From an uncultured Bacteroidales bacterium (lineage in GTDB: Bacteria; Bacteroidota; Bacteroidia; Bacteroidales; UBA932), in NCBI GenBank assembly GCA_944323845.1, contig CALUUA010000008.1, positions 1-64,000 on the forward strand: a stretch of 64,000 nt of DNA, read 5' to 3'. The position numbers and the translations under genes are program-made. The notes beneath the pieces were generated by a model. It did no database searches. It was not told where the DNA came from and saw only the letters and a list, made by a program, of their open reading frames with translations. The first letter of the stretch is position 1, and the number at the start of each line of letters is the position of its first letter. Positions 27,824-50,642 of the stretch are shown here, piece by piece.

Positions 27824-28747
27824 TTAGTGTTTGCAGGCGTCCGTACCGCCGTAATAAAGCATGTTCATCTTCCCGGTCATGTCCTTCATTTCCTGTCGTA
27901 TATCTTCAGGAGACAGGATCTCGATATTCGGACCGTGCCGGAGGAATTCCAGCAGAAGGCTATGGTTCGGGGATACAAATATGGAAAAAGTTGTGGATTT
28001 TTCATCCTTTTTTATGACAGTTTGTGTATGATGAAGGGGTAAGTCGCTGATATACAATCCCTCATTGCCGAAGGCCCTGAATATTATCCTTACTGCAGGA
28101 CTGTCCGGCAGATATGCGCCGAAAGATGATGCGAAAAGCGTGTCTATGTCGAAATCCGACGGCACTGTGAACTGTTCCGGCAATATTTCCATCCTGACTA
28201 TCCTGTCAAGCGCATACATGCGGAGTGCTTTCTTTTCTTCTGTCCAGCCGACCAGATACCATCGCTGCGCGCTTTCCTTGATTCCGTATGGCAGAACCTT
28301 CCTTTTTTCCTCGGTTTCGCTTCCGTATTTCCTGTAATGTATCTCCACAGCGTTACCCTCCTGCATGGCCGACATGAGCGGCGCGAGGAATTTCTTTCCC
28401 GACGGTATCTCCTCTACCGAAATCCTGCCGGACAACCTGTCTCTGGCGAGGGCAAGCATGTTGTTCACGGTAAAGGTGTCGATAAGCCATGCGATGCCTG
28501 TGTCCCTGTCGGAAATCTCTCCGCTGTTCCGGATGAAGTATCTGTTTGTACTCCGGTTGCATTCGATCTCTATGCCGAAAACTTCGGCGACGGCTTCCCT
28601 GTGATTATTGAATGACCTCCGGGCATAGCGGGAACCGAACTTGCGTTCCCATGCCTTGCCCAATTCTTCCAGATTCAGCCCTCTGTCGCCGGCGGTGATG
28701 AATTTCTGTATAAGCCAAATGTATTTGTCTAACAGTTCGGTAACCAT
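27824..28747 (-). CDS. WYL-domain transcriptional regulator
   Basis: A protein of 307 residues from the ATG at 28747 (MVTELLDKYIWLIQKF), preferred because it lies just downstream of a TATGTTTG promoter. The N-terminal part (about 1-95) is the winged-helix DNA-binding region seen in DeoR/YafY-like proteins. The WYL domain (about 125-205) has the motif QRWYLVGW and AlaLDRI-like YALDRIVRMEI. WYL domains bind small ligands or nucleic acid and tune transcription. The gene is divergent from the surface lipoprotein/SusCD locus, making it a candidate regulator of that locus. That link is inference. Confidence 0.88.
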   Translation of the reverse strand: MVTELLDKYIWLIQKFITAGDRGLNLEELGKAWERKFGSRYARRSFNNHREAVAEVFGIEIECNRSTNRYFIRNSGEISDRDTGIAWLIDTFTVNNMLALARDRLSGRISVEEIPSGKKFLAPLMSAMQEGNAVEIHYRKYGSETEEKRKVLPYGIKESAQRWYLVGWTEEKKALRMYALDRIVRMEILPEQFTVPSDFDIDTLFASSFGAYLPDSPAVRIIFRAFGNEGLYISDLPLHHTQTVIKKDEKSTTFSIFVSPNHSLLLEFLRHGPNIEILSPEDIRQEMKDMTGKMNMLYYGGTDACKH

Positions 28748-28768
28748 TTGCAAGCAAATTATTCTCAT

Positions 28769-28776
28769 CAAACATA
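28769..28776 (-). promoter_or_regulatory. Promoter of the WYL regulator (TATGTTTG)
   Basis: TATGTTTG fits TAnnTTTG and ends 21 nt before the ATG at 28747. The -33 element is not clear. The divergent promoter for the surface-lipoprotein locus is about 50 bp away. Confidence 0.5.
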
Positions 28777-28808
28777 GAAAAAATTTCAATAAAATTATCG
28801 CCGGACTA

Positions 28809-28840
28809 TTGGAATCTTGGAATCTTTTTGATTAAATTTG
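28809..28840 (+). promoter_or_regulatory. Promoter of the lipoprotein/SusCD locus
   Basis: TTG at 28809-28811 and TAAATTTG at 28833-28840 are separated by 21 nt, a good Bacteroidetes promoter. The roughly 85-nt leader contains a CCGCGG-N8-CCGCGG inverted repeat near 28864-28883, just before the lipoprotein ATG region. A regulator shared with the divergent WYL gene could act here. Confidence 0.65.
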
Positions 28841-28931
28841 TAACTGTGTACGAACACAAAAAGCCGCGGAACAATGGCCGCGGGTATTGGAAACCACTTG
28901 GAACGGAACACGAACTAATTACTTATGTCAG

Positions 28932-30342
28932 ATGAAAACTTTTGATTGTCTGAACATTGCACTTGCTGCAATCTTGATTTTCTGGGGGGGGGGGATTTCT
29001 AACCTCCTGTGAAACCATCTATGAGGCTGAGCCCGGAGAGGTGCCGCCCAGATATGATGAAAAACCGGACGACGACCCGGATTCCGAACTTCCTGCCGCA
29101 GGTTACGAGGAACTGTCATTCAGCCTTTCCGCACCGGTGACCGGTATTCCGACCGGAGGTTCCGCTACATTTTCCGTTTCCATTGCAGGGCTTTCTGCAG
29201 ACAAGTCGCTGCCCGAAGTGACATATCAGTGGTCATCTTCCGATGATGAGGTCCTCAAAGTAATTCCTGACAAATCCACTGCCATAGTCGAAGGCCTGAA
29301 ATCCGGCAAAGCCGTGCTGACAGTCAGCTGCGCGGAATATGAAAATCTCTCCGCTTCTGTCGGAATTTCCGTCATCGACCTGCAGAATCCATATCCTTTC
29401 CTTTCTCTGTCATTGTCGTCTTCCGTACCTGACGAATTCATAACAGGTTCGGAATCTGCGGTTTCGGCCACGGTCCTGAATTATCCGGCAGGCTCTCAGT
29501 CTCCGGTGACCCTGACATGGACATCATCTGATCCGTCTGTCATGAGTGTAAGTCCGACAGAGACAGTATATGACGGTGGCTCCATGTCGGTGACGGTTTC
29601 AGCCGTCAAGCCGGGAACGGCAGTCCTGACCGTATCCTGCAACGAGTACGAAGATCTTCGGGCGACCCTTGAAATCAAAGTGGAAAACCCGGGCGAGTAT
29701 AACAAGATCTATATCGATTTCGGAGACGATTATCAGAGCGCGGCTCCGTGGAACAACTGCAGCGCATTCCAGGAGTACAGTCTGAAAGACGAACAGGGAC
29801 TCGACAGCGGGGTGTCGCTGGATCTGACTCCATGGAAATCAGTCACCGACATTTTCGATTCATATTATAAGACGATGTTTGCCACCGAAGGCCCTATCAC
29901 CTTCAACGGCATCGAATTCCCTCTGGAAGTCAGCAAGGATCAGCTTTATATTTACAACAAGGATGTGCCGGCATCATTCACGGTAAGCGGCCTGGACCCT
30001 GAAAAGACATACGAATTCACGACAATGTCCATACGTTTCAACGGCGCATCCAACGTCAGGGAAATGACTATTTCTGTCCAGGGACGCGGCGAAGCCATGA
30101 GCTGCGTGATCAAGCAGGGGTTGAAATGCATTACCCAGGCGGCGGCAGGAGAGGAACCGTACTGTGTGGCCGATGACTGGGACAGCATAGATTGGGGTCG
30201 GTTCTGCAAGGTCTTTTCAGTCGTGCCTGCAGAAGACGGGACTGTGACCGTATCCATGTCAGGTACCAAAATAGGCAGTGTCCAGCAGGCGCATCTGAAC
30301 GCTCTGGTCATAGCTCCAGTGAAACCTGACGGGCAGGACTGA
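28932..30342 (+). CDS. Surface lipoprotein with two Ig-like domains; frame broken by a G11 tract
   Basis: From ATG 28932 the product begins MKTFDCLNIALAAILIFWGGG and then stops after six further codons, because the tract at 28984-28994 has 11 G. With 10 G the frame continues as FLTSCETIYEAEPGE, giving a lipobox (LTSC) and the full downstream protein. The body, read in the other frame to 30342, has an acidic linker, two BIG2-like Ig domains (each ending AVLTVSCxEYExL, nt about 29110-29375 and 29400-29690) and a C-terminal module of about 210 residues shared with the lipoprotein at 30596. It is a probable cell-surface glycan-binding protein, either switched off or miscalled in this sequence. 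Confidence 0.8.
28984..28994 (+). repeat. G11 homopolymer inside the signal peptide codons
   Basis: Eleven consecutive G lie between the hydrophobic core and the lipobox of the lipoprotein at 28932. Tract length decides the reading frame: 11 gives a stop after six codons, whereas 10 or 13 restores the lipoprotein. No other homopolymer of this length is seen in the window. Confidence 0.95.
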
Positions 30343-30407: not shown

Positions 30408-30569
30408 ATGAATAAGAACAGAATCGGCGGAGATTCTCTCTACGAGACTCCGGCATTGGACTGCATCGGTATCGCAGTCGAAGAAGGATTTGCGCAGACC
30501 GGAGAGACCGGCATTGATAACCTGCCGTTCGGAGATGCTCCGGACTATAGCGACGGAGTGACTCTCTGA
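30408..30569 (+). CDS. 53-residue peptide between surface lipoproteins
   Basis: A short frame starts at the ATG 30408 (MNKNRIGGDSLYETPALD) and ends at TGA 30569. It sits neatly between two lipoprotein genes with 65 and 26 nt on either side. The peptide is acidic, has no signal sequence, and follows the pattern YxxPxxxxxxIxxExxFxxS/T with a glycine/aspartate-rich tail. Short peptides with this look are common beside Bacteroidales surface-lipoprotein genes, but I know of no assigned function. Translation is inferred from fit and context. Confidence 0.6.
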   Translation: MNKNRIGGDSLYETPALDCIGIAVEEGFAQTGETGIDNLPFGDAPDYSDGVTL

Positions 30570-30595
30570 CAAGAACAATTAAAATGACTATTGCT

Positions 30596-32116
30596 ATGAA
30601 AAAATATTTTTTCCCGTTTGCTGCTGTCGCAGCAATGGCAATATCCTGCCAGACAAAGGATTTGGACGGAGTTCAGGAAACCTCAGGGCAGGCCTTCACC
30701 ATCGAGGCGTCCATAACCGCCACGAAAACATCATATGAAGCTCCGTTTACAGTCACATGGGACGAAAACGAGACACTTTCCGTCATTGCCTGCTACTCCG
30801 ACGGCACATATGATGGATATCGCTTCATAAAGGAGGAAGGCAATACTTTCACTTGTCCGGATGTCCATGACCAAGGCTCGATAACCGGACTGAAGGTCTT
30901 CTATCCTTATTCGGAAAACATGTCGTACGCCGAAGGTTATGGTACGGAAGCTGTCATCATAGGCTCTCCGGCTTCAGGAGTCCAGACCCAGAACGGCGCG
31001 GATGATACCGGACACGTGGATGCCCCGCTTTACGGTCAGGCCGATGCTGAATCCGGAAAGGTATCGCAGGTGCAGATGCGTCATGCATCCACCCTCTTCG
31101 AGGTGATAGTGGCGAACAATACCGGCGCCGAGCTCGATATTGAAGGAATCACCCTTTCGAACAGCGACAATGACAACATGACCGGAGCCTTTTTCCTTAA
31201 TCCGGAATCGGGAGAACTGAAGCCTGATACTGAGGTTTCCGCCTCTGCAGTCCTCGAAGTGCTGAACGGCGCTGTGGCTGCCGGAGCAGGTTCGGAAGGC
31301 CGGTTCTATATCGTTTCCGCTCCGTTCGAATTGCCTGAAGGCGGTGCTTTGACAGTCACTGTGACTACAGCCGACGGTTCCGAATATGAAGTGGAGAAAG
31401 TCATTCCGGAGGCCGGACTCGGAAAATTCGAAGCAGGGAAGGTAAATCACATAAATGTTCCTGTAGGAAGCGTGCAGGAAGCTCCGGCAAGGATTTTTGT
31501 GGATTTCGGACTATGGAAGGACGGCCGTGTAAGCGAGGATCCTTGGAATAATCTTACTTCATTCGAAAACCATATCCTTGAAGACGAAAACGGAGAAGAC
31601 AGCGGAGCATCGATAAATCTTACGAACTGGACAGGGGCGAACAAGTTCGAGGAATATTATACTTCGGGATTCAAGACAGTAGACGACATCGTTTTCAACG
31701 GCATCACATTCCCGCAGTCCGCTTTCATGGACTGGCTGCTGTCGGACAAGAAGGACAAGGCTTCATTTGTCATCGAAGGTCTCGATCCTGATGTTACATA
31801 TGAAATCACCACAGCATCCATCAGGTGGAATTCCGCCAGCAATGTCAGGGAGATGTCTCTTGATATCAAAGGTTCCGGAGAGGCCCAGAACAGCGGAATC
31901 ATCCGACAGGGGCTGAAGTGCGGGACAGGGGAGTACGAGACTCCGGACGATTGGGCCTCTATAGGCTGGTCGCAGTATTTCAAGGCATTCACTCTCAAGC
32001 CGGCAGCTGACGGGACGGTCACTGTCACCCTGAACGCTACTGAGGTAGTCACATCATCGACAGTCCAGCAGGCCCATCTGAACGCCATGGTCATCACTCC
32101 TCTTTCAGGAGAATAA
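30596..32116 (+). CDS. Surface lipoprotein: fimbrillin-like domain plus shared C-terminal module
   Basis: A lipoprotein of 506 residues from ATG 30596 (signal MKKYFFPFAAVAAMAISC, lipobox AISC). An ATG 12 nt upstream is less likely. Residues about 25-290 resemble fimbrillin/Mfa-like adhesin domains: ATKTSY...FTVTWDENETLSV, RHASTLFEVIVANNTGAELDIEGITLSN and KFEAGKVNHINVPV. From about 300 to the end it carries the module also found at the C-terminus of the 28932 lipoprotein (IFVDFG, PWNN, FNGITFP, SNVREM, VQQAHLNAMVI). It probably binds glycan on the cell surface. Confidence 0.82.
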   Translation: MKKYFFPFAAVAAMAISCQTKDLDGVQETSGQAFTIEASITATKTSYEAPFTVTWDENETLSVIACYSDGTYDGYRFIKEEGNTFTCPDVHDQGSITGLKVFYPYSENMSYAEGYGTEAVIIGSPASGVQTQNGADDTGHVDAPLYGQADAESGKVSQVQMRHASTLFEVIVANNTGAELDIEGITLSNSDNDNMTGAFFLNPESGELKPDTEVSASAVLEVLNGAVAAGAGSEGRFYIVSAPFELPEGGALTVTVTTADGSEYEVEKVIPEAGLGKFEAGKVNHINVPVGSVQEAPARIFVDFGLWKDGRVSEDPWNNLTSFENHILEDENGEDSGASINLTNWTGANKFEEYYTSGFKTVDDIVFNGITFPQSAFMDWLLSDKKDKASFVIEGLDPDVTYEITTASIRWNSASNVREMSLDIKGSGEAQNSGIIRQGLKCGTGEYETPDDWASIGWSQYFKAFTLKPAADGTVTVTLNATEVVTSSTVQQAHLNAMVITPLSGE

Positions 32117-32245
32117 CCGTTCTTCAACATACTGCTCTTCAGGGAGGATTGCTGGAAAGGAGTGATTTCGGACATGAGCCGGAAAATACCCTTCCAGCCG
32201 CCCTCTCCTGCGGGAGCTTTGTCATACAGAAAAAGACACCATAAG

Positions 32246-33961
32246 ATGAAAAAAATGAATTTGCTGATTCTTCCCATGATTCTTCTCGTATCCGGGAGTT
32301 GCGACCCTGTCAATGACGAGAACAGCCTGCGGCCGCGGCCGGATTCGCCTGAATCCATCACTTACTCCGATGCCGCCGATGTCCCTGTCATCCATACTGT
32401 GGATGAATCGGACTACACCGTCTATTATATCGACAGCGATAACGGCAGCGACTCGAATGACGGGCTTTCAGAATCGGACGCCTTCAAGAGTTTCTCTCCT
32501 GTAGCCGGCCTCTCCAAACCTGAAGGGACGAAAATATTGCTGAAGAAAGGCTGCACTTATTCGGGACCTTTGGTGCTGAAGGAGCTCGGCGGCACCTATT
32601 CCAAACCTTTCATAGTGGATGCCTATGGTGAAGGCGACAGGCCTGTAATCAGCGGAACCGGCGACTATGCTGTCCTGATTCAGGACGACAATATCAGATT
32701 CCGCAATATCTGCATCACCAACAAAGCCGGAAAAAGAGGAATCTGGGTGCTTGCCGACCGCGGCGGCGCAATGCAGAACATACAGATCCACGGCTGTCGT
32801 TTCGACACTGTCAACTGGCAGGGCGACATGGACGTCGAGACCATGGAACTGACCTCTGCGAATGTCACGGCAGCCTGTTCGAACGATAACTACAACAAAC
32901 TTTTCGGAGGCGTGATTTTCCAGGGACCTGATGATGCCTCTACAGGGCCGAGCTGGTTCGAAAACCTGTTCGTCACGGACAACGAGTTCTACAAAGTCAG
33001 CCGTACGGGCATACAGATATATTCCAGATGGGGCGATCGTACAGGCCGGGGAAACGGCCGCAATGCCTATATCGACGACGATCACAACTGGTATCCGAAC
33101 CGGAACGTGGTTTTCCAGGGGAACGAACTCGACTACATCGGAGGGGACGGAATCGTCCTTCAGATGACGGACGGCGGCTTCATCGACCACAACAGGTGCT
33201 ACCATGCGAACTTCCTCGGCCGTTCCGGTCAGGCGAATGTCGCGATGTGGCCGTATTCCGCGAAGAATATCGTCATGCAGTTTAATGAGGCGGCCTATAC
33301 CAGATGGGAGAACGGCAGCAGCGACGGCGAAGGCCTTGATGTCGACATAGCGTGCAGGAACACTCTGGTGCAGTACAACTACGTACACCACAATACCGGA
33401 GGCGGCATCCTGCTCTGCAACCGCGGCGGCGACAGCAATGTCGGGGCCGACCACAACGGGACTGTCATCCGCAACAATGTCTTCCTTCTCAACGGCGGCA
33501 AGTCGAAGGGCTCGTTCATGATGCTTTCCACATGCGTCGGCACGGTGGAAGCCTATAACAACATCGTCATAACCGACAACGAGAATCCGCGCATCATCCA
33601 CAGCGATGACTGGTACAAGGAGGGAAACACCAAGGAACTCATAATGAGAAACAACATATTCATGTCCACGACTGCCGTAGTGGGAGTATTCGATCACAGC
33701 GCGATAGATTATACCGCATTCGAGAATAACCTCTACTGGAATCTCGCCAGCGATTTTTCGATAGTGGACCCTTATTCCCTTATGTACGATCCTGAAATTT
33801 CCGTGCCTGTCGATATGAACGGGTATGACAAGGCCGCAATGTGCCGTCCCGGCAATGCGAAGGTCTTCGAAGACGGCTTCCTTTTCGACGGAATGGCCTC
33901 GAAGGATTTCACGGGTACTCCGGTGGACGGAATAAAATATCTTGGCGCCTTCGCCAGGTAA
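32246..33961 (+). CDS. Right-handed parallel β-helix lipoprotein
   Basis: A protein of 571 residues from ATG 32246, which starts a signal with lipobox VSGSC. YYIDSDNGSDSNDGLSESDAFKS is the typical opening of pectate-lyase-like β-helix proteins. Repeated N-rich rungs follow across residues about 100-500: IRFRNICITNKAG, NVVFQGNELDYIGGDGIVLQ, NIVMQFNEAAYTRWENG, NTLVQYNYVHHNTGGGILLCNRGG and GTVIRNNVFLLNGG. It could be a polysaccharide lyase or epimerase, or a carbohydrate-binding scaffold. No catalytic triad can be assigned by eye. Confidence 0.82.
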   Translation: MKKMNLLILPMILLVSGSCDPVNDENSLRPRPDSPESITYSDAADVPVIHTVDESDYTVYYIDSDNGSDSNDGLSESDAFKSFSPVAGLSKPEGTKILLKKGCTYSGPLVLKELGGTYSKPFIVDAYGEGDRPVISGTGDYAVLIQDDNIRFRNICITNKAGKRGIWVLADRGGAMQNIQIHGCRFDTVNWQGDMDVETMELTSANVTAACSNDNYNKLFGGVIFQGPDDASTGPSWFENLFVTDNEFYKVSRTGIQIYSRWGDRTGRGNGRNAYIDDDHNWYPNRNVVFQGNELDYIGGDGIVLQMTDGGFIDHNRCYHANFLGRSGQANVAMWPYSAKNIVMQFNEAAYTRWENGSSDGEGLDVDIACRNTLVQYNYVHHNTGGGILLCNRGGDSNVGADHNGTVIRNNVFLLNGGKSKGSFMMLSTCVGTVEAYNNIVITDNENPRIIHSDDWYKEGNTKELIMRNNIFMSTTAVVGVFDHSAIDYTAFENNLYWNLASDFSIVDPYSLMYDPEISVPVDMNGYDKAAMCRPGNAKVFEDGFLFDGMASKDFTGTPVDGIKYLGAFAR

Positions 33962-33983
33962 TACAACTGTAAACAGTCTGGAA

Positions 33984-35063
33984 ATGAAAAGAATAGCGAT
34001 ATTTTTAACAGCACTTCTGGCGATTGCGGCCATGTCGTCATGTCAGAAGGAACAGAAACCGGAATTCGGCATTCTGTCGGAAAACGAATTTAATGTCGGC
34101 AATACCGGTGGCTTCGTGACAGTAATCATGCACACGAATCAGCCGTATGCTGTCACTACGTCTGCCGACTGGTGTCATGTGGTGGTCAAGCAGCCTATCT
34201 GCTTCAAGCTGCAGGTGGATGAAAACGCCACGCTGTCAGCCAGAGAATGCACTGTCACCGTAGAATCCACCGATGAATTCGAGCCGGTCCTGATAACTGT
34301 CTTTCAGGATGAGGGACAGCTCTTCTTCAGGATGGACGAGTCGGAAAAGACCAAGACTTTCCCTGCAGAAGGCCAGACCCAGACAGTGGTCATGCAGACC
34401 AATATGGGAGATTATCAGGTGAAATCCTCAGAAGACTGGTGCCATATAGGGAACAGAACGGGCGAAGGCTTCGAGGTCATATGCGACCCGAGGGATGATT
34501 TCGGTACCAGAACGGCTGTCCTGACACTGGAAATGGAAGGTCTGGACGAACTGGAAGGAGTGCAGACCCCTGTCCGGATCACTGTGTCGCAAAAAGGCAA
34601 CAATATGATACTCAACCCGGTCTTCGCCAATGACAGCATGGACGGCTGGGTATCCGAGCCTGAAGGGATATTCGCCCTCAATGACGCCAAATGGATACCA
34701 GGCGATCTGGGAGGAGTCGGCCACGATATAGAAATCAATTCCGGAAACGGAACCGGTTTCCCTAAACCGACGGCTCCGTTCAGCGGATACTTCCTCTATC
34801 ACGTGGACAATGTCACTCCGGGAACCTGGACCTTCTCGTTCAGGAGCCAGAGAGGTTCGAATTCCGATTTCACCATGAATGCAGTCCTGAGGAATGCGGA
34901 AGGTGCGCTGACGGTCAACGAGCCTATTGAACTCGTGTCGAACTGGGGCACCAACTCGTGCATCATGACAGTGACTGAAGAGGGCGCCTATGATGTGGGG
35001 ATATATGTGGAATTTTCTTCGAATTCCCCGTGGTTCAATCTTATTGATTTCAAATTCGAATAG
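33984..35063 (+). CDS. BACON-domain surface lipoprotein
   Basis: A protein of 359 residues from ATG 33984, with lipobox MSSC. Two BACON domains follow (about residues 25-115 and 118-210), recognised by paired patterns FVTVIMHTNQPYAVTTSADWCHV and QTVVMQTNMGDYQVKSSEDWCHI, each followed by a VTVE/ISVSQ-type strand. The last part (about 215-359) opens with NPVFANDSMDGW and reads as a jelly-roll galactose-binding-like domain. This is the usual layout of a surface glycan-binding protein that hands oligosaccharides to SusCD. It ends 2 nt before susC. Confidence 0.88.
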   Translation: MKRIAIFLTALLAIAAMSSCQKEQKPEFGILSENEFNVGNTGGFVTVIMHTNQPYAVTTSADWCHVVVKQPICFKLQVDENATLSARECTVTVESTDEFEPVLITVFQDEGQLFFRMDESEKTKTFPAEGQTQTVVMQTNMGDYQVKSSEDWCHIGNRTGEGFEVICDPRDDFGTRTAVLTLEMEGLDELEGVQTPVRITVSQKGNNMILNPVFANDSMDGWVSEPEGIFALNDAKWIPGDLGGVGHDIEINSGNGTGFPKPTAPFSGYFLYHVDNVTPGTWTFSFRSQRGSNSDFTMNAVLRNAEGALTVNEPIELVSNWGTNSCIMTVTEEGAYDVGIYVEFSSNSPWFNLIDFKFE

Positions 35064-35065
35064 AA

Positions 35066-38000
35066 ATGGGCAGGATAAACAGAATTTTGACGGGAGCAGT
35101 GCTTTCCCTGCTCATTGCAGGAACTGCATCCGCACAGGACATGGTGACAGTATCTGGTACCGTGTCTGACGAGAGTGGTGCCACCATTCCGGGAGCCGGG
35201 GTCGTTCTCAAAGGGACGACTACGGGTACGGCTACGGACATTGATGGAAATTATTCCATCACTATTCCTGAAAAATCGGTGCTTGTAGTTTCCAGTCTCG
35301 GCTATATAAGCACGGAAGTGAATGTCGGTACGCGGGCGAAGGTAAACGTGGTGCTGGCAGAAGATATAAACTCTCTTGACGAGGTGGTCGTGGTCGGATA
35401 CGGTACGCAGCGTAAAGGAGACCTTACCGGTGCGATTTCGTCGTTGCGGGGCGAATCCATGCCGTCAGTCGCCACGACGACTCTCGGACAGGCTCTCAAA
35501 GGGCAGATAGCCGGAATGTCTTTCGAGCAGTCCAGCGCGCAGCCGGGAGCACGTGTGCAGCTTCAGATACGAGGCTCAGCCACTGACGCCGAGCCTCTCG
35601 TGGTCATAGACGGAATACCTGTGCGTACAATGTGGGAAATAGACCAGGAGCTGGATTATGGAAAAGGCGACAAGGAAAGCGTATTGGACAATATCAATCC
35701 TGAAGATGTCCAGGACATTCAGGTGCTGAAAGACGCCAGTGCCACATCCATCTACGGAGCAAATGCCGCAGGCGGTGTCATACTCATCACTACCAAAAAA
35801 GGACGTGCCGGGCGCACGAATGTGTCTTTCAAGTCTTCCGTGACCCTGCAGTGGATAGCCAAGGAACCGGAGGTGTTCAGCGCGAAGGAATACATGCGTC
35901 AGGTAAACAGATACCAGCTTCAGCAATACGTCTATGATCAGGAGTATTATCCGTGGGGAAACCGGCCTCTGCCTGAATACAGCGCTCTTGTATCGGAATT
36001 CGAGGCTGCCCATGCGTCGGATCCGAACAAAGGCTGGTTTTTCGATCCGGATGCCATAGACTCGTTCATAGGCGGAACGGACTGGTATGACTATATCACC
36101 AGACTGGGAAACATCCAGAATTATGACCTTTCTGTAAGCGGAGGAACTGAAAAGACCACTTTCAGGGTGGCTCTCGGCTATATGGCGAATGAAGGAATCG
36201 CGAAGAACAGCAGTTACGACAGGGCGTCCGGAAGGATAAATCTGGACCATAAGTTCAACAGCTGGCTGTCCGCTGGAATCAATGCATCCTACACCTTCCT
36301 AAAGTCGGGTGACATAGCCCTTTCAGGCTCTTCAGGTACGACTACCTTGTTTTCGGCCGCCAGAACCTTCGACCCTACGGTGACTCCTTACGAACTGGAC
36401 GGCAGCTTCTCTTCACAGAGCTACGACTCGTCCAATGCAGGTATCGGACCTCTCTCAGTGATGGATGTGAAGATGAATACGAAGAAGGATAATCTGCTGA
36501 CATCCGCATATATAGACATACATCCGGTCGAAGGACTTTCCATCCTCGGGACCTTCGGCTACGACAGGAAATTCGCCATGACAGGCAGTTATTTCTCGTC
36601 GACCACCAGACAGGGCCGAGAGTACGAAGGCGTGGCCAGAGTGGACAGGAACGAATTGTCGAACTACTACATAAACATCAGGGCTACCTATAACAAAGTG
36701 ATAGCCGATGCACATACGTTCACTGTGATGGGCGGATGGGAATACCAGACTTCCGGTTCGGAGAGTCTGGCAGGATGGAATACCGGATTCCCGTATGACG
36801 GCGTTTTATGGAACAATCTGGAACTCGGTACCAACTCGAAACCGAGGGTGTACTCCTCGGCAGAATCCAGTCAGACTGCCTCTTTCATGGCCAGACTCAA
36901 CTATTCCTACAAGGGCCGCTATCTCCTGACTGCGAACTGGAGGCTGGACGGATCGTCCAATTTCGCTCCGAACAGGCAGTGGGGTAACTTCGGAGGAGTG
37001 TCAGCAGCATGGAACATGGCAGAAGAGCCGTGGCTTGAGAACGTGTCATGGATAAACAGTCTGAAGATACGTGCCGGATGGGGAGTGACGGGAAATGCCG
37101 GAAGTCTGACCGGTACCAGGACTTATTACAGTCCGGGATATGACTACTCCTTCAACAACAACGAGGAAAGCGGTGTCCGTCTGGCGGTGCTCGGCAACCC
37201 GGATCTGACCTGGGAATCCCAGCATGACATAAATGTAGGCGTGGACTTCGCCTTCTTCAACAACCGTCTCGGCGGAACTGTCGATGTGTACGAGCGTACC
37301 ATCAAGGACCGTATCGGAAAGAAGAACCTGATGTCATACCAGGAAGTGACCACCATGCACTATAATACGAAGCGTATAGACAAGACCAGAGGCGTGGATT
37401 TCTCCCTGTATGCAGTGCCGGTCAATACCCGCGACTTCAACTGGAGCAGCCAGTTCACCCTCACCTTCTACAGGGACTATACCATCGTCAGGGATCCTGC
37501 CGATGTCCTCGACATAAATGATTATCCGTCATACGAATGGGGACACCAGTGGTACCATCTCACCGACGGGCTTCTGCAGCCGGGAGAAGTGAATCCGGGC
37601 CAGCTTTCGACAGACAGAAGGGCGGGACAGGTGAAAGTCCTCGATGTGAACGGTTACCTGCGTGACGAGTACGGCCAGAAAATATACGGCTCGGACGGGC
37701 GTCCGCTCTACTCCGGTTCTCCTGACGGCATCATAGACGCCGCAGACCTCGTGGATCACGGAAACAACACGCCGATACCGTTCAGCTGGAACAATACTTT
37801 CCGCTACAAGAACTTCGATCTGGAAATAGGCATATACGGAAAACTCCACCGCTGGGCATCCAACGATTTCGTGAATGCCGACCCGGAATCAATGCTGCAA
37901 GGAAAGAACACCATAGTATATGTGGCAGACCAGTACTCGTTCGACAATCTGGATGCCAAGTATCCTTCCTACCAGTACTGGCAGCACGACGGAGTGGGCT

Positions 38001-38227
38001 ACGGCGACTATTTCAGGGAGCCGGCATGGTTCATCCGTCTGGACAACATATCGCTGGGATACACTCTGACCAGAGATGTGCTCAAAGTGCTCCAGTCAAT
38101 CCGTTTCTACTTGTCTTTCAGAAATATAGCTGTAATAACGCCATGGCACGGCCCGGATCCTGAATACAATGTCTACACATATCCGAGCTCTACATCAGCC
38201 ACTTTCGGCATAGACATCAATTTCTAA
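35066..38227 (+). CDS. SusC/RagA-family TonB-dependent outer-membrane transporter
   Basis: A 1053-residue transporter. The signal peptide (ending TASAQ) is followed by a CarboxypepD_reg-like domain (about residues 25-105), the SusC plug signature SLDEVVVVGYGTQRKGDLTGAISSL, and the plug with LVVIDGIPV and VLKDASATSIYGANAAGGVILITTKKG. A long β-barrel follows to the C-terminus (ATFGIDINF). It imports oligosaccharides captured by the adjacent SusD, powered by TonB/ExbBD encoded elsewhere. It starts 2 nt after the BACON lipoprotein and is 11 nt before susD. Confidence 0.97.
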   Translation: MGRINRILTGAVLSLLIAGTASAQDMVTVSGTVSDESGATIPGAGVVLKGTTTGTATDIDGNYSITIPEKSVLVVSSLGYISTEVNVGTRAKVNVVLAEDINSLDEVVVVGYGTQRKGDLTGAISSLRGESMPSVATTTLGQALKGQIAGMSFEQSSAQPGARVQLQIRGSATDAEPLVVIDGIPVRTMWEIDQELDYGKGDKESVLDNINPEDVQDIQVLKDASATSIYGANAAGGVILITTKKGRAGRTNVSFKSSVTLQWIAKEPEVFSAKEYMRQVNRYQLQQYVYDQEYYPWGNRPLPEYSALVSEFEAAHASDPNKGWFFDPDAIDSFIGGTDWYDYITRLGNIQNYDLSVSGGTEKTTFRVALGYMANEGIAKNSSYDRASGRINLDHKFNSWLSAGINASYTFLKSGDIALSGSSGTTTLFSAARTFDPTVTPYELDGSFSSQSYDSSNAGIGPLSVMDVKMNTKKDNLLTSAYIDIHPVEGLSILGTFGYDRKFAMTGSYFSSTTRQGREYEGVARVDRNELSNYYINIRATYNKVIADAHTFTVMGGWEYQTSGSESLAGWNTGFPYDGVLWNNLELGTNSKPRVYSSAESSQTASFMARLNYSYKGRYLLTANWRLDGSSNFAPNRQWGNFGGVSAAWNMAEEPWLENVSWINSLKIRAGWGVTGNAGSLTGTRTYYSPGYDYSFNNNEESGVRLAVLGNPDLTWESQHDINVGVDFAFFNNRLGGTVDVYERTIKDRIGKKNLMSYQEVTTMHYNTKRIDKTRGVDFSLYAVPVNTRDFNWSSQFTLTFYRDYTIVRDPADVLDINDYPSYEWGHQWYHLTDGLLQPGEVNPGQLSTDRRAGQVKVLDVNGYLRDEYGQKIYGSDGRPLYSGSPDGIIDAADLVDHGNNTPIPFSWNNTFRYKNFDLEIGIYGKLHRWASNDFVNADPESMLQGKNTIVYVADQYSFDNLDAKYPSYQYWQHDGVGYGDYFREPAWFIRLDNISLGYTLTRDVLKVLQSIRFYLSFRNIAVITPWHGPDPEYNVYTYPSSTSATFGIDINF

Positions 38228-38238
38228 ATCATCCGGAA

Positions 38239-39711
38239 ATGAAAATAGCGAAATATATCATCCTGCTCCTGCCTGTGGCCGCCATGTTGTCCGGCTGCAC
38301 GCTCGAGCGCGTCTCCTACGAGGAAATATACAAGGAGAATCTGTACAGGAATGACAGCGACGTACAGAAATCCGTAACAGGACTCTACGAACTTTTTACC
38401 ACAGGATGGGGAAAATTCTACTGCGCTGACCAGTGGGGATATGTCATCTGCACGGACATGACTACGGGACAGCTGACCTCCAAATGGCAGAATCAGGGTT
38501 ATCAGGCCTTCTATGAGCATCGCTGGAGCGAGACGGGATCCGATCTTGCCACCCAGTTTTCACAGAAGATCTATCCCCAGTATAAGGAACTGACCCGCAT
38601 AAAGAATACGATAGATGACATCGCAGCCGCAGACATCACTCCCGCCGTCAAGGTGCAGGCCATAGCAGAGGCCAAATGTCTTTACGGCTGGATAGGCTAC
38701 ATCATGTATGACCTTTTCGGCCCGGTTCCGCTAGCCACCGACGAAGCGAGGAAAAACCCTACGGCCTATATCTACATTCCGAGACTGTCGGATGAAGAAT
38801 ACACTGCCGAGATGATATCCATGCTGGACGATGCCATAGAGGATCTTCCGTGGAGAAACGAATCCTGGGGACACGTGACCAAGGGCATGGCCCTGATGCT
38901 GAAACTGAAGTTCCTGATGATGAATCATGATTTCGAAGCGGCGGAACCTGTGGCCAGACAGCTTTACGAACAGGAAGGGAACGTCTATGCCCTTCTACCG
39001 GACTACGCATCCGTGTTTACAAAGTCCAACGCCAGAAACAACGAGATCATCCACGCCATTCCGGCCGGAGAATCGAATCCTAATTACTGGATAACACAGA
39101 CCACCTGGGGAGATGTTCCGGGCTATGAAGGGGAAAACTGGGCCACTTTCCTCATGCAGTGGAGCTTTTATGACTCTTTCGAGGAAAACGACCAGAGGAA
39201 AAACACCATTGTCGCCGAATACACATCCACTACCACAGGCGCAGTCGTGAAAAGAGGTGCAGGAAACCTGCAATACGGGTGTTGTCCCATAAAAATCGGG
39301 CAGGATCCGGACAGGATAGGCTCCAGAGGGACTACGGACGTGATAGTCTTCCGCTATGCCGATGTACTGCTCTCGCTGGCTGAATGTATAAACGAAAACA
39401 ATTCAGGCCCTACACAGGAAGCCATATCACTCGTGAACAGGATAAGGAACAGAGTAGGACTTGCGGATCTGACTTCGGACAAGACCGCAAACAAGGTATC
39501 CTTCAATACGGCGATTCTGAATGAACGTCTCCATGAGTTTTATTGCGAAGGCTTGTCCCGGTCTGACAAGATACGGCACGGAACATTCGTGTCAGACTCC
39601 CAGACCCAGTACAAGGACAGCCAGAGCGACTGGTATAAGGTCCGTTTCCCGATACCGTCTTCGTATATCAACGAATCCAAGGGTATTGTAAAGCAGAATG
39701 ACGGTTATTAA
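38239..39711 (+). CDS. SusD/RagB-family surface glycan-binding lipoprotein
   Basis: A 490-residue lipoprotein with lipobox LSGC near residue 19. The SusD helical TPR-like scaffold is visible: LYELFTTGWGKFY, YPQYKELTRIKNTIDDI, AEAKCLYGWIGYIMYDLFGPVPLATD. The C-terminal SusD block is VFRYADVLLSLAECINENN...AISLVNRIRNRVGL...LNERLHEFYCEGLSRSDKIRHGTF. It forms the lid on the SusC barrel at 35066. The pair defines this as a glycan-import locus. The carbohydrate is not predictable by eye. Confidence 0.96.
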   Translation: MKIAKYIILLLPVAAMLSGCTLERVSYEEIYKENLYRNDSDVQKSVTGLYELFTTGWGKFYCADQWGYVICTDMTTGQLTSKWQNQGYQAFYEHRWSETGSDLATQFSQKIYPQYKELTRIKNTIDDIAAADITPAVKVQAIAEAKCLYGWIGYIMYDLFGPVPLATDEARKNPTAYIYIPRLSDEEYTAEMISMLDDAIEDLPWRNESWGHVTKGMALMLKLKFLMMNHDFEAAEPVARQLYEQEGNVYALLPDYASVFTKSNARNNEIIHAIPAGESNPNYWITQTTWGDVPGYEGENWATFLMQWSFYDSFEENDQRKNTIVAEYTSTTTGAVVKRGAGNLQYGCCPIKIGQDPDRIGSRGTTDVIVFRYADVLLSLAECINENNSGPTQEAISLVNRIRNRVGLADLTSDKTANKVSFNTAILNERLHEFYCEGLSRSDKIRHGTFVSDSQTQYKDSQSDWYKVRFPIPSSYINESKGIVKQNDGY

Positions 39712-39713
39712 TC

Positions 39714-42191
39714 ATGAAAACGGGTATTGCAATATTGCTGCTGATTTTTCTGTCAGCCGGGATGCCTGCCGGTGCGGCAGGTTTCCCGGAATATTCCACG
39801 GCAGGATTCCATGTTCTGGAAGATTGCGGACGGGATGTCTTCAGCATGAACGGCGGATGGCTTTTCTTCAAGGGTGACGACCCGGATGCCGCGAATGTCG
39901 GATACGATGACAGCGGATGGGAGAATACGGCATTGCCGCATGGCATAGAAATACTGCCGGAGGAAGCCAGCGGATGCATGAACCGGCAGGGACCGGTCTG
40001 GTACCGGAAGCATCTGCGGCCAGGAGAGGAATTGAAGGGAAAGAGGCTCCTGCTTTATTTCGAGGCAGTGATGGGAAAATGCAAGGTCTGGGTAAACGGT
40101 ACTCAGGCGGCGGAACACTATGGCGGATATCTTCCTGTGACGGCGGATGTTACGGGACTGCTTGTTCCGGGAAAGGAGAATGTGATCGCAGTGAGGGCAG
40201 ACAATTCGGATGACCCTCTGGTGCCACCGGGAAAGCCGCAGAAAGACCTTGATTTCACTTATTTCGGAGGAATATACAGAGACTGCTGGCTGATAGCCTG
40301 TAATGAAGTGTACATAACGGATCCCAACGAAGAGGATGAGGTGGCAGGCGGCGGTCTCTTTGTCTCATACGACATGGTTTCGGAAAAGTCGTCTACGCTT
40401 CGTCTGCGCGTCCATGTCAGGAATGAATCGGACCGGAAGTTCCGGGGCGCGGTCAGCTATGTATTGCGTGAACGCGACGGCAGAAGGGCTTGCTGTACAT
40501 CCGTGCCGGTCAGCATCGGCTCCGGAGAAGCGGCCTATGCCGGGACAGTGCTTGAAGTGGCGGCCCCTCATCTCTGGTCTCCGGAACATCCGTACCTGTA
40601 TCGTCTGGAAGTACGGGTGACTGATGCCTGCGGGGAGGTAAGGGACGGTTATATGCAGCGTATAGGGATACGCAGCGTGGAATTCAGGGGTGAAGACGGA
40701 TTTTTCCTGAACGGGAAGAAGTATCCGGGAAAACTTATCGGCGCCAACCGTCATCAGGATTTCGCCCTCATCGGGAACGCTCTTCCGAATTCCCTGCACT
40801 GGAGGGATGCGGTCAAGCTCCGCAAGGCAGGATTCAAGGTTGTCAGGAATACGCATTATCCTCAGGACCCGGCCTTCATGGACGCATGCGACTCTCTCGG
40901 ACTTTTTGTCATCGAGAATCCTCCGGGATGGCAGTTCTGGTCCGATGATCCGGTTTTCGCCGCCCGTGTCCGTTCCGATATCAGGAATATTGTCCGCAGG
41001 GACAGGAACAGACCTTCCGTGCTGATGTGGGAACCGGTGCTGAATGAGACAAGATATCCGGAAACGTTCGCGCAGGAAGCGGAAAAATGCGTGAAGGAGG
41101 AATATCCTTACCCGTTCTGCCATACGGTCGCTGACAGCGGATCGCCGGGATACGGGTGTTTCGATGTCATTTATTCCCATCCAGCGGATGCTGCCGGTCA
41201 GGGACATGCGTATTTCACGAGGGAATGGGGCGACAATGTGGATGATTGGTCGGCGCATAATTCCTCCAGCAGGGCCTCTCTGTCCTGGGGAGAAATGCCC
41301 CAGTTGATACAGGCTGCCCATTATGCGTGTCCGGATTATGACTTCACTTGTCTTGAGAAACTGTACGGGACTCCAGACAGCCATGTGGGAGGCTGTCTGT
41401 GGCATGCGTTCGACCATCAGCGCGGCTATCATCCCGACCCGTTCTACGGGGGAGTGATGGACGGGTTCCGCCAGCCCAAATATTCATGGTACATGTTCAT
41501 GTCCCAGCGCCCTGTTTCCGGAGAAGATTCCCCGGGTTCGGGACCTGTAGTCCATATAGCCCACGCCATGACCCCGTTTTCTCCGGCAGACGTGACGGTA
41601 TATTCGAACTGTGACGAAGTGAGGCTCACCGTTTTCGAAAACGGCAGGGAATACAGGTGGTCAAGAGCTGGGCATCCTGCGTCCATGCCGTCTCCTCCGG
41701 CAGTCTTCGCTGACGCATTCGATTTCATGGATTGCAAGGCTCTGTCCAGAGCCGGCAGGCAGGATGAATCCTATATGCTGGCTGAAGGCTGGACGGACGG
41801 CAGACTGGTCGCCAGTCATAAGGTATTTCCGGCAGGAAGGGCTGAAAAACTCGTCCTTTGGGCAGACGACGAAGGCATCGGCCTTACGGCTGACGGTTCA
41901 GACATCGTCACTGTAGTCGCCGGAGTGGCCGACAGCAGGGGCAACATTCGCAGGCTCGACAACACCTGGATAGTATTCTCCGTAGAGGGAGAGGGTAGGA
42001 TAGTCGGGGATGCCTCCATTCAGGCCAATCCGAGGCAGACCGTATGGGGCACGGCTCCGGTTCTGGTCCGTTCCACCACCGTTCCGGGCGAGATTATAGT
42101 AAAGGCCTCTGTCCTTTTTCCCGGGACGGAACGGCCTGCTCCCGCCGAACTCAGGCTCATGAGTCACCCTTCCTTATACAGGAATCTCTGA
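39714..42191 (+). CDS. Glycoside hydrolase family 2
   Basis: An 825-residue exported enzyme with a signal peptide (cleavage near AGAAG). A jelly-roll sugar-binding domain (about 40-190) and an immunoglobulin-like domain (about 200-320) precede the TIM barrel (from about 325), which has IGANRHQDFALIG, the acid/base region WEPVLNET with E445 and the nucleophile region FTREWGDN with E504. The C-terminal part (about 640-820) has an extra Ig-like domain including the VEGEGRIVGDASIQANPRQTVWG-type segment of GH2 enzymes. Likely a β-galactosidase, β-glucuronidase or β-mannosidase; specificity is open. It starts 2 nt after susD. Confidence 0.92.
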   Translation: MKTGIAILLLIFLSAGMPAGAAGFPEYSTAGFHVLEDCGRDVFSMNGGWLFFKGDDPDAANVGYDDSGWENTALPHGIEILPEEASGCMNRQGPVWYRKHLRPGEELKGKRLLLYFEAVMGKCKVWVNGTQAAEHYGGYLPVTADVTGLLVPGKENVIAVRADNSDDPLVPPGKPQKDLDFTYFGGIYRDCWLIACNEVYITDPNEEDEVAGGGLFVSYDMVSEKSSTLRLRVHVRNESDRKFRGAVSYVLRERDGRRACCTSVPVSIGSGEAAYAGTVLEVAAPHLWSPEHPYLYRLEVRVTDACGEVRDGYMQRIGIRSVEFRGEDGFFLNGKKYPGKLIGANRHQDFALIGNALPNSLHWRDAVKLRKAGFKVVRNTHYPQDPAFMDACDSLGLFVIENPPGWQFWSDDPVFAARVRSDIRNIVRRDRNRPSVLMWEPVLNETRYPETFAQEAEKCVKEEYPYPFCHTVADSGSPGYGCFDVIYSHPADAAGQGHAYFTREWGDNVDDWSAHNSSSRASLSWGEMPQLIQAAHYACPDYDFTCLEKLYGTPDSHVGGCLWHAFDHQRGYHPDPFYGGVMDGFRQPKYSWYMFMSQRPVSGEDSPGSGPVVHIAHAMTPFSPADVTVYSNCDEVRLTVFENGREYRWSRAGHPASMPSPPAVFADAFDFMDCKALSRAGRQDESYMLAEGWTDGRLVASHKVFPAGRAEKLVLWADDEGIGLTADGSDIVTVVAGVADSRGNIRRLDNTWIVFSVEGEGRIVGDASIQANPRQTVWGTAPVLVRSTTVPGEIIVKASVLFPGTERPAPAELRLMSHPSLYRNL

Positions 42192-42253
42192 TTTTTCCGA
42201 ATGCCGGAAAATGACTAAATTAGAGCCGAACTTGAAATCCAACCGTTTATACG

Positions 42254-45001
42254 ATGAAGAAAATCATAGCTTTCACCCTTTTTTCGGCATTGGCCGTGTC
42301 CATGCTTGCGCAGGACAATTCCCGTATCTACCGCAAAGGCTGGATAGATTTCAACAAAAACGGAGTCAAGGATGTTTACGAGGATCCTTCGGCCGACATT
42401 GACGACAGGATTGAAGATCTGCTCGGGCAGATGACTCTGGACGAAAAGACGTGCCAGATGGTCACCCTGTACGGCTACGGCAGGGTCCTCGCGGATGATC
42501 TTCCCGCTCCTGAATGGAAGGAAAAACTGTGGAAGGACGGAATAGGAGCCATAGACGAGCACCTGAACGGATTCCGCCAGTGGGGGCTTCCGCCTTCAGA
42601 CAATGAATATGTCTGGCCTGCCTCGAAACATGCCTGGGCATTGAATCAGGTGCAGCGTTTTTTCGTGGAGGAGACAAGGCTCGGGATACCGGTGGATTTC
42701 ACGAACGAGGGAATCCGTGGAGTGGAAAGCTACAAGGCCACCAATTTCCCTACGCAGCTGGGCCTCGGCCATACATGGGACAGGGAACTGATAAGGGAAG
42801 TGGGGTACATAACCGGCAGGGAAGCCCGGCTTCTGGGTTATACGAATGTCTATGCTCCGATACTCGATGTAGGCAGGGACCAGAGATGGGGCAGATATGA
42901 GGAAGTCTACGGAGAAAGCCCGTATCTGGTGGCCGAGCTCGGTATAGAGATGGCCAAGGGAATGCAGACCGATTTCCAGGTGGCGTCTACCGCCAAGCAT
43001 TTCATCGCCTACAGCAATAACAAGGGGGCAAGAGAGGGCATGTCCAGAGTCGATCCGCAAATGTCTCCGTCGGAAGTCGAGAATATCCATGTCTATCCGT
43101 GGCGGAAGGTTATACGCGAAGCCGGCATCCTCGGGGTGATGAGTTCATACAATGATTATGACGGTTATCCGGTCCAGTCCAGCCGTTATTGGCTCACGGA
43201 CAGGCTCCGGGACGATTTCGGTTTCAGGGGCTATGTCGTTTCCGACAGCGATGCCGTGGAGTATCTGCATATGAAGCACGGGGTGTCGCCGGACATGAAG
43301 GAGTCGGTCCGCCAGTCTGTCATGGCCGGCCTGAATGTCCGCTGTACTTTCCGTTCCCCGGATTCATATGTTCTGCCTCTTCGCGAGCTGGTGATGGAAG
43401 GGGGAATACCGATGCAGGTCATAGATGACAGGGTGAGGGATGTGCTCCGCGTCAAATTTCTTACGGGCCTTTTCGACTGTCCATATCAGCAGGACCTGAA
43501 GGCAGCCGACAGGGAAGTGGACAGTCCGGAACATCAGAAGGTGGCCCTGAGGGCTTCCAGAGAGTCCATCGTATTGCTGAAAAACGACGGTCTGCTGCCT
43601 CTTGAGACTGACAGCATAAGATGCATCAGCGTCTGCGGACCGAATGCGGCCGATGCATCATATGCATTGACGCACTACGGACCTCTGGCCGTAGAAGTCA
43701 CATCTGTATTGGACGGGATAAGGAAGAAGTTCGAAGGGAAGGCGGAAGTCCTGTATGCGAAAGGTTGCGACATCGTGGATGCACGCTGGCCCGAGTCGGA
43801 AATATTGCCGGAACCGCTTGATGCGGAAGAGCAGGCAGGAATAGCGGAAGCCGTGGAAAATGCTCGCAGGAGCGATGTCGCTGTGGTGGTGCTCGGTGAA
43901 AACTCCAGAACATGTGGGGAGAACAAGTCTAGGACGAGTCTTGACCTTCCGGGACGCCAGCTCGACCTTCTGAAAGCCGTTCATGCTACGGGTACTCCGG
44001 TAGTGCTGGTGCTCATAAGCGGCAGACCCAATTCCATAAACTGGGCGGACAGACATGTGCCCGCCATTCTCGAGGCATGGTATCCGGGATCCCAGGGAGG
44101 TACGGCGATAGCCGATGTGCTTGCTGGAGACTATAACCCGGGAGGAAAACTGACCGTAACCTTCCCGAAGACAGCCGGCCAGATACCTTTCAATTTTCCG
44201 GCAAAACCATCCTCCCAGATAGACGGCGGCAAGACTCCCGGGCCTGACGGTAATGCCAGCCGCATAAACGGAGCCCTTTATCCGTTCGGCTACGGGTTGA
44301 GCTACACTACTTTCGAATACTCCGACCTGCGTATTTCCAGAGACGTGATGACTCCGTATCAGAATCTGGAAGTCAGCCTGAAAGTAAGGAATACCGGCAG
44401 CATGAAGGGTGATGAGATAGTCCAGCTATATATCAGGGATGTCATCAGCTCGGCTACGGCTTACGAGAAGAACCTGCGCGGTTTCGAGAGGGTCAGTCTG
44501 GCTCCGGGAGAGACTGCCGAGGTGACATTTGCCCTCGAACCGGACGATTTGGCGGCATATTATTCGGCCTATGGGAAACGGGTGCTGGAACCGGGGGAAT
44601 TCAGGATTATGGCAGGGGCTTCGTCAGAGGACATACGTCTTTCGGGAAGCGTCACTGTCGTCCCGTACGAGGGAAAACCTGTGGAAGCATTGTCCGGGAA
44701 CGGACAGCCTGAAAGCGTTATGCCGGTCCCGTGGTCAGGGAAGGCCGGGGATTTCATGACCATTTCTCTCGGGACAGGAAAGACAGTCTCATCCGTGTCC
44801 GTCGTATGGGAAGGCCTTGACGGAGACCCGGCTGATTTCGACATCCAGCTTTCAGGAGGAGGCGGGCAATTCATCACGGTCTGGTCGGGAAAAGCCGGAG
44901 CAGGACGGCAATCATATCGGTTTCCGGCGACTGTCGCCAGCGATTTCAGGATTCTCCTCAAGACAGGTTCAGCCGTGATTTCGGAGCTGGAACTGGAATA
45001 G
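42254..45001 (+). CDS. Glycoside hydrolase family 3 with extra C-terminal domain
   Basis: A 915-residue exported GH3 enzyme (signal ending SMLAQ). The first domain (about 30-420) has the substrate-loop motif TAKHFIAYSNNKGARE and nucleophile loop YVVSDSDAVEYLH with D331. The α/β-sandwich (about 430-640) has VVVLGENSRTCGENKSRTSLDLPG. A fibronectin III domain (about 690-790) is followed by about 110 residues that read like a discoidin/F5/8-type carbohydrate-binding domain (VSSVSVVWEGLDGDPADFDIQLSGG), which ordinary GH3 β-glucosidases lack. It is likely a periplasmic or surface β-glycosidase of the locus. Confidence 0.92.
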   Translation: MKKIIAFTLFSALAVSMLAQDNSRIYRKGWIDFNKNGVKDVYEDPSADIDDRIEDLLGQMTLDEKTCQMVTLYGYGRVLADDLPAPEWKEKLWKDGIGAIDEHLNGFRQWGLPPSDNEYVWPASKHAWALNQVQRFFVEETRLGIPVDFTNEGIRGVESYKATNFPTQLGLGHTWDRELIREVGYITGREARLLGYTNVYAPILDVGRDQRWGRYEEVYGESPYLVAELGIEMAKGMQTDFQVASTAKHFIAYSNNKGAREGMSRVDPQMSPSEVENIHVYPWRKVIREAGILGVMSSYNDYDGYPVQSSRYWLTDRLRDDFGFRGYVVSDSDAVEYLHMKHGVSPDMKESVRQSVMAGLNVRCTFRSPDSYVLPLRELVMEGGIPMQVIDDRVRDVLRVKFLTGLFDCPYQQDLKAADREVDSPEHQKVALRASRESIVLLKNDGLLPLETDSIRCISVCGPNAADASYALTHYGPLAVEVTSVLDGIRKKFEGKAEVLYAKGCDIVDARWPESEILPEPLDAEEQAGIAEAVENARRSDVAVVVLGENSRTCGENKSRTSLDLPGRQLDLLKAVHATGTPVVLVLISGRPNSINWADRHVPAILEAWYPGSQGGTAIADVLAGDYNPGGKLTVTFPKTAGQIPFNFPAKPSSQIDGGKTPGPDGNASRINGALYPFGYGLSYTTFEYSDLRISRDVMTPYQNLEVSLKVRNTGSMKGDEIVQLYIRDVISSATAYEKNLRGFERVSLAPGETAEVTFALEPDDLAAYYSAYGKRVLEPGEFRIMAGASSEDIRLSGSVTVVPYEGKPVEALSGNGQPESVMPVPWSGKAGDFMTISLGTGKTVSSVSVVWEGLDGDPADFDIQLSGGGGQFITVWSGKAGAGRQSYRFPATVASDFRILLKTGSAVISELELE

Positions 45002-45060
45002 ATAAGGAAAATTTGCTATATTGCTGTGTTTTTCGCTGAATCTGGAAAAGACGACAATAT

Positions 45061-50642
<5,582 letters not shown>

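Follow-up and report, generated by a model that had tools for sequence, protein, structure and literature searches.

The window, that is, the whole 64,000-nt stretch of DNA analysed here, comes from a gut-type Bacteroidales bacterium and carries on its forward strand a gene whose start codon and signal-peptide core lie in one reading frame and whose body lies in another, with 11 consecutive G residues between them. The ATG and the hydrophobic core, MKTFDCLNIALAAILIF plus the first base of a Trp codon, occupy positions 28932–28983 (9-residue hydropathy maximum of 3.26), the G11 tract occupies 28984–28994, and the lipobox codons L-T-S-C occupy 28999–29010. At the assembled length, translation from ATG 28932 yields MKTFDCLNIALAAILIFWGGGISNLL and stops at a TGA (29010–29012) after 26 codons. 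The two frames are joined by 10 G but not by 11 or 12 G. With 10 G (or 7 or 13), an ORF of 469 amino acids runs to the stop codon at 30340–30342 and the lipobox falls in frame, which occurs only at 10 G modulo 3, while 9 or 12 G leave the body out of frame. This arrangement, in which the removal of one G joins the start and signal core to LTSC and the body, had been proposed in a preliminary description of the locus and is confirmed here. The body length of 430 residues given there was slightly low; the mature body (29008–30342) comprises 444 residues counted from the lipid-bearing Cys.

The predicted N-terminus with 10 G, MKTFDCLNIALAAILIFWGGGFLTSC, has a basic n-region, a hydrophobic core and a lipobox ending in Cys, and would qualify as a typical SPII lipoprotein signal peptide, as judged by eye and by hydropathy without SignalP. 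At the present tract length, no start codon for the body frame is found upstream of the tract, where this frame is open for only two codons. GTG 29041 is a possible internal start in the body, and its product would lack both the signal peptide and the lipobox. The other G runs in the window are at most 6 nt long, and the C runs at most 5 nt. Since GGG accounts for only 15% of the Gly codons in the window, GGG-GGG-GGG is not the default codon use. A slipped-strand phase-variable gene should carry a tract in which unit changes alter expression, and the G11 tract within the signal peptide, with a full ORF only at 10 G modulo 3, meets this criterion, its instability being unmeasured. The rest of such a gene should also remain intact in the OFF state, and this is the case for the 444 open codons here and for the open bodies of the other out-of-frame genes described below.

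Upstream of the gene, a possible Bacteroidales-type promoter on the forward strand is composed of ATTG (28808–28811), a 21-nt spacer and TAAATTTG (28833–28840), and is identified only by its match to the Bacteroidales consensus TTTG/TAnnTTTG. A perfect GC hairpin (CCGCGG, 8 nt, CCGCGG; 28864–28883) lies in the presumed 5' leader of this gene and is terminator-like on the reverse strand, and a gene for a WYL-domain regulator is divergently oriented (27824–28789, reverse strand). An invertible promoter would be bracketed by inverted repeats. Those found are 74–80% matched over 20–23 nt or 11–16 nt long, and none of them closely brackets 28740–28931. Promoter inversion was rejected as the switch, since suitable repeats are absent near the promoter of the gene.

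Downstream on the forward strand, a paralogous lipoprotein gene without a G tract (30584–32116; signal peptide MKKYFFPFAAVAAMAISC; C-terminal domain 48–52% identical) is followed in the same gene run by genes for a right-handed beta-helix protein (32162–33961), a BACON-domain lipoprotein whose signal peptide ends in MSSC (33942–35063), a SusC/RagA outer-membrane receptor (35066–38227; TIGR04056, E = 3e-226), a SusD/RagB lipoprotein (38239–39711), and GH2, GH3, Met-zincin and LacZ-type GH2 proteins (39714–50642). With an adjacent SusC/SusD pair and glycoside hydrolases in one co-directional run, the criterion for a PUL is met. Co-transcription of the 28932 gene with the PUL run is inferred from spacing only, and a surface glycan-binding or adhesin role of its product is inferred from its location. 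A small ORF of about 53 codons (MNKNRIGGDSLYETPALDCIGIAVEEGF...; 30410–30569) lies between the two lipoprotein genes and resembles short YE(A/T)P peptides. A similar start, MKTNEKELYEAPLTMSLKFV, runs into a G9 tract at locus L063 (genome G361).

No full-length ortholog of the window gene was found in 400 same-genus genomes (150 at first, then 400), which contain only relatives of its C-terminal and Ig-like domains. Without one in this set, there is no direct comparison at this site and no dN/dS for the N-terminal half. This half gives weak Ig-like matches (Big_2, PKD). The C-terminal beta domain is common to PUL lipoproteins of the genus and is present in the 30584–32116 lipoprotein and in proteins of 14 other species. 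Between the two paralogs in the window, it shows 0.63 synonymous versus 0.33 nonsynonymous differences per site, a pattern consistent with constraint, though weakly so. The SusC of the window has one close relative among the genome contigs searched, and that contig stops before the lipoprotein. The AlphaFold2 model of the body has a mean pLDDT of 53.6, only its C-terminal domain is fair, and it is of too low quality to inform on function. Foldseek matches of the body, mostly to binary-toxin pores, had TM ≤0.2 and rmsd mostly >20 and were discarded as meaningless; a PDB profile match to 4i8i (per-stretch E of 0.008 and 15) was also discarded.

Long G tracts in the genome of the window

Pattern searches on both strands of the genome gave 4 G runs of exactly 7 nt, 5 of 8, 10 of 9, 5 of 10 and 2 of 11, and thus 17 runs of at least 9 G. 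The length distribution forms a hump without decay, and the counts of shorter runs drop several-fold per added base; this shape suggests that the distribution is informative about the tracts. Under a first-order Markov model, runs of at least 11 G are expected 0.04 times in the window and 1.4 times genome-wide. Since the model also predicts about 20 runs of at least 9 G in the genome versus the 17 observed, the genome-wide count alone is not decisive.

The position of the tracts is stronger evidence and outweighs both the count and the shape of the length distribution. Surface genes carry five of the 17 long tracts in their 5' part, namely two lipoprotein genes (the window gene, 11 G, and L009, 10 G, both out of frame) and three SusC genes (L016, 9 G, out of frame; L025, 10 G, out of frame from its own signal peptide; L027, 10 G, in frame), so that one is in frame and four are out at the assembled lengths. 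If signal-peptide regions are assumed to make up 0.5–2% of the genome, the probability that at least 4 of 17 tracts fall within them is 1e-6 to 3e-4. The genome has open mutS and mutL genes, so that the tracts can be accounted for without a general mutator state, and the mutator explanation was rejected.

Poly-G was also found outside surface genes in this genome. Two predicted two-component-type sensors (L012, G000:C4:63979; L020, G000:C14:53714) carry an in-frame G9 that encodes Gly-Gly-Gly-Tyr in the Reg_prop propeller region, about 200 residues from the start; these tracts are possibly regulatory contingency loci, or merely Gly codons. At L017 (G000:C11:39488), a G10 lies only a few bases upstream of the start codon for a CHC2 zinc-finger (DnaG-type primase) protein and possibly causes variation in the promoter or leader of a gene from a mobile element.

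Recurrence in signal peptides across the genus

The pattern ATGAAR-N30-60-G9 occurs at 61 places in 400 same-genus genomes; in 49 of these the frame stays open as far as the tract, and in 21 the prefix resembles a signal peptide, as defined by a hydropathy rule (9-residue hydropathy ≥1.8) and not by SignalP. The number 21 is an undercount, since longer distances and other start contexts were outside the search. The same search with C9 gave 37 places, of which 19 were open and 5 signal-peptide-like (one-sided Fisher p = 0.019), and G9 in 292 other-genus or non-overlapping Bacteroidales genomes gave 48 places, 5 of them signal-peptide-like (one-sided Fisher p = 0.003). The difference from the C control is only moderately significant. 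Furthermore, since Gly is tolerated in signal peptides and Pro is not, G is favoured over C by that alone.

Nineteen of the 21 signal-peptide-like places, the window gene included, lead directly into long intact surface-type ORFs; the two exceptions, L105 with no long ORF and L111 with an AraC-type regulator, were set aside. SusC/TonB-dependent-receptor-like proteins of about 1030–1120 residues account for 10 of the 19, and one of these (L099) matches the CarboxypepD_reg and outer-membrane barrel domains but not Plug. The other nine are lipoproteins or secreted proteins, with BACON, LRR, DUF4988 and glucuronyl-esterase-like members and the rest without assignment. As assembled, 6 of the 19 genes are in frame and 13 are out, a proportion indistinguishable from the one-third in frame that would arise from equal chances for every length modulo 3. 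These data are assemblies only, one per species and of unknown sequencing platform, and the threshold of at least 9 G somewhat inflates the out-of-frame share, since it enriches for out lengths where the ON length is 8.

These counts bear on the main alternative named in the preliminary description, an assembly or sequencing slip, according to which the tract really has a constant 10 G, the extra G is an artefact and the gene is permanently on. In its favour, the assembly is a draft in 31 contigs from an unknown platform, and homopolymers are a typical place of assembly errors. However, a slip alone leaves the recurrence of tracts of 9 or more G in surface-gene signal peptides across the genus unexplained, as well as the 13 of 19 genes that are out of frame. 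If 90% of these genes were truly in frame, finding only 6 of 19 in frame would have p of about 1e-9, with the reservation that the 9-G threshold biases this value. We consider a slip an improbable explanation of the G11 tract, but even a genuine switch tract could carry an error at this single locus.

Two further G9 contexts were noted in the genus. TTTTTTTGGGGGGGGG is present at 12 places in 151 same-genus genomes (L123–L134), and the reverse order, G9T7, at no place in these genomes; the copies in the genome of the window (G000:C1:292642-292657 and G000:C4:27160-27175) are copies of one intergenic element, and some places lie 3' of terminator-like hairpins (L131). The N-terminus MKQIVPEYKSNNS or MKQIVPEFVSNNS runs into G9 at the same place in L077 (G369), L085 (G154) and G278:C1:26551, and no long ORF follows the G9 in the two loci examined.

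Constraint and tract length in orthologs

In two ortholog pairs, both members are out of frame. The SusC proteins L097 and L102 are 65% identical with a dN/dS of 0.20 over 1042 codons, and the lipoproteins L096 and L098 are 63% identical with a dN/dS of 0.14 over 513 codons; both values are rough because dS is high. A dN/dS of 0.14–0.20 in pairs that are out of frame on both sides would not be expected of genes silenced permanently and for long, and, as far as two ortholog pairs with rough dN/dS can indicate, the out-of-frame genes are still under purifying selection.

A decaying pseudogene, in which a frameshift in a mutation-prone run has permanently inactivated the gene, is difficult to reconcile with these pairs, where the reversible tract is the only visible defect, and with the window gene itself, whose 444 open downstream codons have a normal GC3 of 0.58. 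The 26-residue product at 11 G would fit such decay, as would L009 in the same genome, which stops after 164 codons and may have a second frameshift. Permanent inactivation of the window gene is, in our judgement, very unlikely.

Tract length differs at a homologous site in the L097/L102 SusC group. The FLLGGAA signal peptide is encoded on an in-frame G8 in six species (L135, L137, L139, L141, L145 and L147), the tract is an out-of-frame G9 in two species (G256 and G265), and further orthologs, e.g., L136, L138, L140 and L146, have other Gly codons or residues and no tract. Tract length could also tune expression rather than switch it, if slippage of RNA polymerase or the ribosome on the G tract yields a steady low level of full-length protein. 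Long homopolymers are generally slippery for polymerases and ribosomes (PMC3711429, stated for poly-A/T). Such recoding could coexist with DNA slippage. However, recoding sites are usually conserved, whereas tract length and frame vary among the orthologs (in frame at 8 G, out of it at 9 G, or without a tract), and we give recoding hardly any credence as the main explanation.

A probable slipped-strand switch and its relation to known systems

We consider it highly probable that this PUL-associated surface lipoprotein has, in the G11 tract of its signal peptide, a contingency switch of the slipped-strand type, one of a set in the genus. This reading, already put forward in the preliminary description, is supported by the anatomy of the gene, the genus-wide recurrence of poly-G in signal peptides, the mixed frames (in:out of about 1:2), the intact bodies, the purifying selection on the two out-of-frame pairs, and the interspecific length differences at one homologous site. 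A mixture of lengths within a clone is unproven; reversible switching in a clone, its consequences for the protein and for display, polar effects on the SusCD genes downstream and the cause of selection are all inferred. In the proposed mechanism, a G gained or lost as the DNA is replicated would bring the lipobox and body into the frame of the start codon or take them out of it. Only 10 (7, 13) G would lead to an exported, lipidated protein, and the assembled genome would represent an OFF length. ON/OFF variation of surface receptors may be selected by phage, immunity or glycan choice, and the tract would thereby be kept. The switch may also affect the SusCD genes further along the run through polarity.

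For phase variation by DNA inversion, Bacteroidales serve as the textbook example, and random on/off switching by poly-G is better known from Neisseria and Campylobacter. No report of poly-G phase variation in Bacteroidales was found in the full-text literature searched, which did not cover subscription papers or bioRxiv preprints, so that novelty is not proven by this absence. The closest case found is a short C run with a frameshift in a Bacteroides fragilis polysaccharide locus, for which slippage was suggested (PMC3090145).

In Neisseria meningitidis, hpuA and hmbR contain poly-G inside the ORF, and hpuA is ON at 10 G and hmbR at 9 G (PMC3352162). As in these genes, the tracts described here lie in the reading frame of surface receptor components, their length modulo 3 sets ON or OFF, and their lengths are similar (7–19 G in hpuA/hmbR, 8–12 G in the Bacteroidales genus). 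On the other hand, hpuA and hmbR are iron receptor genes of a proteobacterium with switching shown in isolates, whereas the genus tracts belong to SusC-type receptors and PUL lipoproteins, are located in the signal peptide, and have not been shown to switch. The invertible-DNA switches of B. fragilis, which include SusC/SusD-family inversion according to a review (PMC11868660, citing Nakayama-Imaohji 2009), also concern phase variation of SusC/SusD-class outer-membrane proteins and surface structures in Bacteroidales. They operate by site-specific recombination at inverted repeats, whereas the window gene has a homopolymer and a promoter without a strong flanking pair of inverted repeats. The poly-G phasomes of Campylobacter (PhasomeIt, PMC6321876) resemble the present set in that many tracts are spread over the surface-determinant genes of one genus. 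However, Campylobacter is an epsilonproteobacterium with other gene families, and here it is in the signal peptides of SusC receptors and of lipoproteins that the tracts recur.

If the switch reading is true, the order Bacteroidales would have, in homopolymer switches acting on SusC receptors and lipoproteins, a second source of surface heterogeneity that is independent of DNA inversion. Annotation pipelines would take OFF alleles for pseudogenes or lose signal peptides, and, because of such misannotation, counts of surface repertoires and PULs in these species would come out too low. We lean towards the broader view that this large, largely uncultured genus has evolved its own poly-G phasome, in which G tracts arising at signal-peptide Gly-Gly codons would gate many SusC-type receptors and surface lipoproteins independently of one another, and each cell would show a random subset of glycan receptors. 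The switch in the window, on the first gene of the PUL run, may gate the whole run via polarity.

The codons at the homologous SusC site suggest a possible origin of the switches, in that Gly-Gly-Ala in the signal peptide coded as GGG GGG GC would form a run prone to slip; a Gly-Gly(-Gly) stretch being tolerated there, a tract would be able to form. A second G9 site, in frame and farther along the SusC N-terminus, is present at the start of the CarbopepD domain (VRGGV) in two species (L155 and L164).
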